Assembly: GCF_030373545.1 (NCBI RefSeq)
Contig: NZ_JAUDCO010000002.1
Coordinates: 1 to 64,000, forward strand
Direction of reading: 5' to 3'
Origin: Collinsella tanakaei
GTDB taxonomy: Bacteria > Actinomycetota > Coriobacteriia > Coriobacteriales > Coriobacteriaceae
Length of the DNA: 64,000 nt
Position 1 is the first letter of the stretch. Each line of letters opens with the position of its first letter. This document shows, in pieces, positions 8,187-61,977 of the stretch. The position numbers and the translations under genes are program-made. The notes beneath the pieces were generated by a model, which did no database searches, was not told the DNA's origin, and was given only the letters and a program-made list of their open reading frames with translations.

Positions 8187-8372
8187 GGCATTCCTTTCGT
8201 CGCCGGGTGCCGGCGGACGGGTGGGGACGTGTCCGGTTCATCCCCTTTTCGCCAGCGATGGTGACGGCCGGCTCCATTTTCCCATCGCGCCCATGGGCGG
8301 ATGCCGATACCTTCGGCGAGTGGCGCGCCTCGCGCTGGGGACCAGCAGTTGCCCCGTGTCAGAATCGAGATG

Positions 8373-8504
8373 TTCGCGAAGTGAGTGCTTCATATCGAAA
8401 ACCCTTTGTATACGGCAGAGGTTGCAATTCGTGTAACTGCGGATTCCTTGCTGTGCAGCAGAGGGACACTCGAGGAATCCAAAACGAAGCGCTCACTTCG
8501 CGAA
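8373..8504 (+). repeat. 132-bp element with 19-bp terminal inverted repeats, copy 1
   Basis: The left arm at 8373-8391 and the right arm at 8486-8504 (TTCGCGAAGTGAGTGCTTC and its complement) pair at all 19 positions with one G-T. Inside are a TTTGTATAC box (8409-8417), a GCAG/CTGC stem around GCAATT, and an 8-bp stem GGATTCCT/AGGAATCC. A second copy of exactly the same length lies at 35198-35329. It sits in the 484-bp gap between the VOC gene and the TetM-like gene, about 165 bp before the latter. The rest of the gap holds only a small GGGGCTGCCCC palindrome at 8531. Whether it acts as RNA or as a mobile element is unknown. Confidence 0.65.
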
Positions 8505-8670
8505 GTCGGGCGAGCCCCAGTGCGCTCGGAGGGGCTGCCCCATCGATCAGAGGGAGCACTATCGTGCAAAATGGCCACGTCGCCCGAGACCGCCTTGCCG
8601 TTTTGGCGTGCGTTTCGCCATCTTCAGCGTGCTACCATCGTGGACGCGATACGAAAGCGAGGAGGCGCGC

Positions 8671-10674: not shown

Positions 10675-10716
10675 CGCGCGCAGGGGTGCTCGGCGCTCCC
10701 TGCGAAGCGCATGTGC

Positions 10717-10853
10717 GTTTACGGTTCGGTTTATGGATGACCTGCCGAGTAGACCGCTGAAACCGCAAGCTCGCTACCAGCGCGTTTGCTTCGAGCGTCG
10801 GCGATGATACTCGGCCATCCCGCCGTAAACCGCACCGTAAACCATTTTTTTTT
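10717..10853 (+). terminator. Long imperfect hairpin plus T9, between convergent genes
   Basis: Arms 10717-10751 and 10808-10842 match at 27 of 35 positions before counting G-U pairs, with a 56-nt loop that itself contains GCTCG/CGAGC. A run of nine T follows at 10845-10853. For the forward TetM-like gene this has the form of an intrinsic terminator, though the stem is far larger than usual. It occupies the gap to the convergent GH13 gene. Confidence 0.65.
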
Positions 10854-26298: not shown

Positions 26299-26464
26299 CA
26301 ACTTGCTAGATTTGCACTTTTCGGGGGTTTCGGAGGGCATTGAAGGCACGTCCGGTTGCTGAGCATTGCCCGCAACTCATCTACCTGCCATTTTGCAAAT
26401 GGCCAAATCAGTCAATTACGCAGTCCTCTTCGAAACCCCCGAAAAGTGCAAATCTAGCAAGTTG
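26299..26464. repeat. Perfect 34-bp inverted repeat with 98-nt loop
   Basis: Arms 26299-26332 (CAACTTGCTAGATTTGCAC then TTTTCGGGGGTTTCG) and 26431-26464 are exact complements. The element is 166 bp long and lies between two reverse-strand genes, 12 bp beyond the stop of the nuclease-like gene. The loop holds no gene. Its AT-rich arms differ from the GC-rich hairpins elsewhere and are closest to the arms at 61815-61977 (TTGCAGATTTTTC). Confidence 0.85.
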
Positions 26465-35197: not shown

Positions 35198-35329
35198 GTC
35201 GCGAAGTGTGCGCTTCGTTTTGGAAACCTTTTGTATACAACTGCAGTAGCAATTAAGCTACCTGCTGATTTACTGTCACACGAATGCCCTGTACCCGCTG
35301 ACTCGAAAATGAAGCACACACTTCGCGAA
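35198..35329 (+). repeat. 132-bp element with 19-bp terminal inverted repeats, copy 2
   Basis: The left arm (35198-35216) and right arm (35311-35329) pair at 17 of 19 positions. It has the same orientation, exact length, GAAACC-TTTTGTATAC box and GCAG/CTGC hairpin around GCAATT as copy 1 at 8373-8504. Base changes in the arms and internal stem keep pairing (GAG versus GTG with matching complement), which supports structure. It lies about 115 bp before the hydroxyproline activase gene, in a 483-bp divergent gap that otherwise holds only a short TGGGCTGTCCCA palindrome at 35344. Confidence 0.65.
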
Positions 35330-39789: not shown

Positions 39790-39961
39790 CAGCCATTGCC
39801 CTCTGCAGGCAAGGCATCCGGATTCCCCTTGCACGCGCCTCTGACTGAACGGAGTGGGAGGGGTGCAGCTGCGATGTATAAACGGACGCCATACTACCAG
39901 TTCGGGGAAATCCCGATGGATAAAAACGAACCGAACCGGGTTCGCCAAGTTGTCCGGATGT

Positions 39962-40094
39962 TCTGGGGCGCGGTTTTTCGGTGCCCAACGCCGGCACGGG
40001 TGATACCTCCCAACAAAAGCCCAGTTCGTTCCTGCGGTTTTGCCGAGCAGTGCCGTCCGTACTGGCGAGGGGCACCGAAAAACCGCGCCCCAGA
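39962..40094. repeat. Perfect 25-bp inverted repeat with 83-nt loop
   Basis: Arms 39962-39986 (TCTGGGGCGCGGTTTTTCGG plus TGCCC) and 40070-40094 are exact complements. The loop has a further CCGGCACGG/CCGTACTGG pairing. It lies between the proC terminator and the DUF1015 stop in a convergent gap; the rest of the 422-bp gap has no gene. Confidence 0.82.
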
Positions 40095-40144
40095 GCTATA
40101 CATGGTTTCTGCGCCCCAGCCAAGCATGGGGCGATCTCAAATCG

Positions 40145-61814: not shown

Positions 61815-61977
61815 TTGCAGATTTTTCCGTGTTGTGTACGTGCGATATTTCGAGCGCAGCAAAACGGCACAAACGGACAGCTTGTGACCTGCTATTACTC
61901 CAGTCGCCACGCTCCAAATGAGTGCTGTTTTGCGGGGCTTCCAAAATCACCCGTACACAACCGGGAAAAATCTGCAA
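61815..61977. repeat. Long imperfect hairpin with 56-bp arms
   Basis: Arms 61815-61870 and 61922-61977 match at 45 of 56 positions, starting TTGCAGATTTTTCC and including GTTGTGTACG and GCAAAAC, with a 51-nt loop. GGCGCCGG flanks both outer sides. It lies between tgt and the convergent DUF2252 gene; the remaining 386-bp gap has only the tgt terminator. Short open frames here have no ribosome site and change with strand, so they are rejected as genes. Confidence 0.78.

Follow-up and report, generated by a model that had tools for sequence, protein, structure and literature searches.

A probable superfamily of small palindromic DNA repeats with a conserved core and variable arms in Collinsella and its relatives

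The 64,000-nucleotide stretch of the Collinsella tanakaei genome analysed here (contig NZ_JAUDCO010000002.1, positions 1 to 64,000; the window) carries members of what is probably a superfamily of short palindromic DNA repeats, interspersed, non-autonomous and specific to the lineage, of the MITE, ERIC or BIME kind. The elements behave like old mobile DNA that is now partly preserved by the host, and not like regulatory RNA. A sequence-only reading of the window had noticed two copies and offered three identities for them, a leader RNA, a regulatory element or an old MITE; the observation is genuine and its extent much greater than was noted, the old MITE is the best fit and the leader RNA is not supported. 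Apparently the superfamily is undescribed so far: neither Rfam nor the open-licence literature yielded an earlier description, which is weak evidence of absence.

The two copies first seen lie at 8373-8504 and 35198-35329, both on the + strand and both 132 bp long, as had been reported. The 19-bp terminal inverted repeats ascribed to them are present but imperfect (18/19 and 17/19 matched), and the conserved box reads GAAAACCCTTTGTATAC in one copy and GGAAACCTTTTGTATAC in the other. In copy 1, with arms CGAAGTGAGTGCTTC, the TIR-like arms occupy 8373-8391 (+) and 8486-8504 (-) and enclose a core at 8399-8478 (+), which consists of a left GTATAC block, the centre TGTAACTGCGG on the dyad and a right block (alignments A2 and A3). 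This copy is found in the same place in genomes G023 and G013; in G016 (contig C13, orthologous to window 8327-8626) about 1.6 kb of other DNA replaces it and appears to encode a metallophosphoesterase-like protein. Copy 2 lies upstream of the gene that the sequence-only reading calls a hydroxyproline activase, and is missing from the orthologous interval of G016, where there is a 195-bp gap. Both copies are intergenic and sit between divergent genes, as described. The hairpin of GCAG and CTGC around GCAATT occurs in both, but is not shared family-wide.

A blastn search with copy 1 against its own genome (2.2 Mb in 25 contigs) returned dozens of matches, the best of the others with E values of 1e-12 to 1e-6. 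Family 1 has about 22 complete members whose conserved ends are separated by 126-129 bp, as well as two truncated copies; its arms, allowing at most two mismatches, always have a partner at fixed spacing, apart from those of the truncated pair and a few stray matches to the pattern. The two copies thus belong to a repeat family and are not a chance pair, given about 22 full copies with near-fixed arm spacing in a single genome. A covariance model built from the 22 family-1 copies (R1) was run on 41 genomes and matched 25 of them, and its distant matches had wholly different outer arms with similar length and core. Superfamily searches used a second covariance model (R2), and 37 diverse members were aligned as A3. 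In the own genome R2 detects about 53 members, almost all of them 131 or 132 bp long, with family 1 forming one branch.

The distribution follows the lineage of the window. Of 200 genomes of the class, R2 matched 65, in 14 of the 93 sampled genera: nearly all genomes of the window's family, many of a second family of the same order and, with single weak matches, three genomes of a third. Across 297 genomes of the phylum there were ten matched genomes, all in the first two families. Copy number ranges from roughly 10 to more than 50 in the genomes counted, and one named Collinsella contig carries two elements. Pattern matches on viral contigs and one in Clostridiales fall outside the superfamily and resemble coding sequence matched by chance, and two element queries found no match in phages. 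Plasmid carriage was considered and rejected: the matches for two elements were to one 900-kb Collinsella replicon with rpsL, rpsG and fusA, and a third element gave none. This record (NZ_OY725717.1, Collinsella aerofaciens, labelled 'plasmid 6') also carries pckA and, with these four genes, is probably a piece of chromosome.

Within the window we identified four further members, or probable members, that had been missed. The element at 10714-10845 (+; R2 69.8 bits) has arms CGTTTACGGTTCGGTTT, lies between convergent genes and is found in the same place in G013, G016 and G023. The element at 39960-40096 (+; R2 weak) has 27-bp arms CTGGGGCGCGGTTTTTCGGTGCCC, again between convergent genes; its predicted fold reaches -91.5 kcal/mol (z -8.9), and three paired substitutions separate four species at this orthologous locus. 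The element at 61815-61977 (+; R2 33.4 bits, E 5e-5) has long arms, TTGCAGATTTTTC.../...GAAAAATCTGCAA, and lies between the convergent tgt (+) and DUF2252 (-) genes, the neighbours being named by Pfam. The stretch at 26299-26464 (+) is a probable member of a long subclass, with arms of about 33 bp (CTTGCTAGATTTGCACTTTTCGGGGGTTTCG) and the core ATCTACCTGCCATTTTG; its R2 match is weak (17.4 bits, E 0.48), and its arms recur with a full core at G016:C10:130443. The R2 limits of the last three (39969-40087, 61825-61966 and 26320-26443) were widened slightly by the inverted repeats to the coordinates given here. A longer subclass of about 140-166 bp coexists with the 131-bp form in G058, G080 and G024, as well as in the window at 26299-26464 and 61815-61977.

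What the members share is a length of mostly 131-132 bp, a single dyad register and an asymmetric conserved core. The core runs from CCGAGTAGACCG (the left block, also written CCGAGTAGAC) through TCTACCTGCGGTTTTG on the dyad to GTCTACTCGG. The register of the symmetry is constant, column i pairing with column 136-i among the 37 members of A3, and ACC-TGC-GGT falls exactly on the dyad inside TCTACCTGCGGTTTTG. The outer arms, in contrast, are self-complementary stretches of 17-27 bp that come in about 20 unrelated sequences among 113 distinct members, for example CGAAGTGAGTGCTTC, CTAAGTGAGTAGAC, CGGAAGTATGCGGC, GGTTGTCAGTGG, GTTTAGGGGACGG, GTTTAGAAGACGG and GTTTACGGTTCGG. Several arm types occur per genome and a single type is found at many loci; left and right types are nearly always equal, with few chimaeras (such as C4:5443 and C1:282504 in G000). 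Other repeats were seen nearby. A palindromic, REP-like repeat about 36 bp long (GGTTGGTTGGGGACGTGTTCC...) adjoins many family-2 elements, at G000 C1:281000-295000 and elsewhere; a deletion in G016 may have arisen through it. Several intergenic regions (L008, L064 and L186) hold a further dispersed palindrome, GACAAGATGGGG(A/C)CGGGTTCAA...TTGAACCCGTCCCCATCTTGTC.

The elements avoid genes and favour particular gaps between them. No member of 115 reaches more than 20 bp into a called gene, and about 85% of the window is coding (genes were called with a retrained gene caller, in agreement with Pfam at the loci checked). Among 107 classified members, 45 are in convergent, 15 in divergent and 47 in tandem gaps, where intergenic length would predict 17%, 41% and 41%. 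The convergent excess (42% vs 17%, binomial P = 1.6e-9) and the divergent deficit (14% vs 41%, P = 8e-10) rest on counts that are not fully independent, several loci being mutually orthologous; counted by itself, the own genome has 19 convergent, 9 divergent and 25 tandem placements. Hence the two copies first seen, both in divergent gaps, are atypical, and their setting does not extend to a superfamily that is enriched between convergent genes. The pneumococcal BOX, RUP and SPRITE repeats show the same convergent bias, which has been read as a sign of parasitic elements (PMC3049150). Between tandem genes the orientation of the element is random (23 same, 24 opposite). An intrinsic terminator was rejected as a general function: a T-run lies 3' of the right arm at 10714-10845, but this is not general.

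A structured RNA (a leader, an attenuator or a small RNA) selected for base pairing is a very unlikely reading of these elements, even though single members are predicted to form very stable hairpins (z -4.3 to -8.9). The sequence-only reading had taken compensating changes, GAG/CTC in one copy against GTG/CAC in the other, as a sign of selection on structure. Over the 22 family-1 copies that column pair is paired in 15 and broken in 7, and arm covariation in the family equals that of shuffled data (0.112 vs 0.109), so the example fails inside the family. Pairing is kept across arm types, where arm covariation is 0.645 vs 0.208 shuffled and 92% of arm cells are paired. Because of this, and because of the three paired changes at 39960-40096, structure or end-matching does matter at the level of the superfamily, though not for the reason first given. 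The paired substitutions could come from selection on pairing or from conversion of one arm by the other. Arm mismatches over 113 members are divided between G-T (48) and A-C (42) with no strand preferred. The absence of covariation in family 1, the lack of a G-T over A-C bias and the random orientation in tandem gaps are more easily reconciled with inverted DNA recognition sites than with an RNA stem. A cis-regulatory leader is further opposed by the lack of a sense orientation and the depletion of elements in divergent gaps. Rfam (release 15) gave no gathering-score match in the window and none that was credible with relaxed thresholds.

Comparison of orthologous loci shows both retention and turnover. 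The elements at 10714 and 39960 are kept in four genomes and that at 8373 in three; the element at 288560 is missing from the orthologous interval of G013, as is that at 35198 from G016. At loci 288560 and 292704 the element of G016 has another arm type on both sides and a diverged core. In C. aerofaciens the interval upstream of rpsL carries an element in G006 and G169 and none in G007, where the right junction falls at the element edge and the left one lies about 28 bp beyond it; in G009, the stretch homologous to G006 begins at the left edge of the element. With junctions at element edges in G007 and G009, the elements mark ends of recombination or rearrangement, and these ends, together with the differences in presence and absence, indicate a mobile, recombining history. 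Neither a transposase nor a target duplication was found for the superfamily: a clean empty site with target duplication was sought at 35198, 26320, 288560, 292704, 282504 and upstream of rpsL, and all of these were imprecise or one-sided; another three queries yielded no counterpart for comparison. TA adjoins many family-2 copies, inconsistently, with no duplication established. As for an autonomous partner, the own assembly showed no element that carries genes between arms of family 1 or family 2, and these arms stand there at fixed spacing. In one further region (L186, G023:C61, 77-1677) a predicted-ATPase gene and a family-1 element occur together in G023; both are absent from G000 and G016, and the remaining interval is about 31 bp.

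The placement of elements at rearrangement ends, and the joint presence or absence of this gene and its element, would also suit a recombination site that folds as a single strand and is used by a tyrosine or HUH recombinase (attC-like or REP/RAYT-like), the arms forming the hairpin stem and the core providing the part that is recognised. The imperfect hairpin with asymmetric conserved inner blocks and a sequence-free outer stem is consistent with such a site, as are the tetranucleotides GTAG and CGTC, which within the element occur only in the core. We nevertheless regard this explanation as highly improbable. There is no obvious replication-strand bias in orientation in the one single-contig genome examined (G216), and neither cassette arrays nor a linked recombinase were seen. 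Integron attC sites have conserved outer R'/R'' boxes and a variable centre and stand in cassette arrays; here the outer arms vary, the centre is conserved and the elements are dispersed singly or in pairs, so that assignment to attC was rejected.

Low divergence between species indicates constraint on some copies. At a convergent locus common to 11 species, the element has a mean p-distance of 0.066 and no gaps, compared with 0.144 and 0.180 (17-18% gaps) in the flanking noncoding DNA and 0.079-0.091 in the flanking genes. The element at 10714 differs by 0.158 vs 0.230-0.270 in adjoining noncoding DNA, and that at 39957 by 0.197 vs 0.297-0.321; these comparisons concern single loci and short stretches, and the three loci agree in direction. 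The same loci are kept in at least 10 species, two of these loci being separated by about 1.4 kb. Such constraint at fixed loci is not expected for a purely parasitic element and therefore counts against our preferred reading, as do the paired substitutions at 39960-40096, which suggest selection on pairing or arm-to-arm conversion. The failure to find a clean empty site with target duplication or a gene-bearing partner in the own assembly also speaks against it, and so does a pattern of conserved inside and variable ends that is the opposite of the MITE norm. The constraint agrees, together with the constant dyad register, the near-invariant core and the convergent placement, with elements that are mainly a host chromosomal site, that is, a two-fold symmetric binding platform for a nucleoid, topology or terminator protein that spread anciently and is now maintained. 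We consider this unlikely, since copy number and arm types vary strongly between species, elements are missing from orthologous intervals, the arm type switches at the same locus and no binding protein is known.

Under the preferred reading of the elements as old, non-autonomous mobile repeats, the arms would be where trans-acting recombinases or transposases, differing in specificity, recognise the element ends, and the core may bind a common protein required for movement or synapsis. Many copies would be old and some now maintained by the host, the retained ones having probably been put to host use, for instance in forming hairpins at the 3' ends of convergent transcripts or in serving as nodes where proteins bind. 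A bolder version, which we put forward tentatively and at somewhat less than even likelihood, is that the elements form a modular class: one conserved core with two-fold symmetry would be joined to self-complementary 'specificity' arms that are interchangeable and have many unrelated sequences, both arms switching together; a putative arm-reading recombinase would drive spread and recombination, and the host would have adopted many copies as fixed intergenic nodes. Collinsella is a common genus of the human gut, and nearly all genomes sampled from its family carry the repeat. The superfamily offers typing markers and explains some rearrangement ends, and it poses the puzzle of what reads the numerous arm types around an unchanging core.

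Among known systems, ERIC (IRU, RU-1) is a 127-bp enterobacterial repeat of one sequence family with 7-bp TIRs, TA ends and a target duplication (PMC2229807). Like ERIC, the present elements have a near-fixed length of about 130 bp, form imperfect palindromes, are intergenic and exist in many diverged copies in one lineage (PMC2229807, in part); unlike ERIC, they have arms of 17-27 bp in about 20 types around a common core. Correia/NEMIS elements of Neisseria are similar in size (about 105-155 bp), with long TIRs (24 bp) and an internal IHF site in the long form (PMC2229807), but have one TIR family, TA ends and target duplications, and are limited to Neisseria. RUP, BOX and SPRITE of Streptococcus pneumoniae are likewise small interspersed repeats with inverted ends and a convergent excess (PMC3049150); RUP and BOX ends, however, resemble those of resident IS and give target duplications, neither of which was found here, and the conserved part here is the inside. 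With REP/BIME and the RAYT-mobilised GTAG/CGTC palindromes the elements share inverted units that are intergenic and often paired, in families with differing stems (PMC3733652). REP units measure 20-40 bp, with stems of 5-13 bp and an unpaired terminal GTAG/CGTC tag, in contrast to a single 131-bp dyad here; membership in REP/BIME was rejected, as the 17-27 bp arms reach the ends and GTAG/CGTC is internal only, with no terminal tag.

The superfamily works like ERIC, RUP, Correia or BIME and is not assigned here to any of them, being set apart by their published descriptions and by having no matches outside its order. As MITEs do, its members combine short length, lack of coding capacity, terminal inverted repeats and multiple dispersed copies. 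A classical MITE has conserved ends and an interior that is free to vary. The present elements reverse this pattern, and their combination of a fixed inside with variable ends is the unusual feature of the superfamily.
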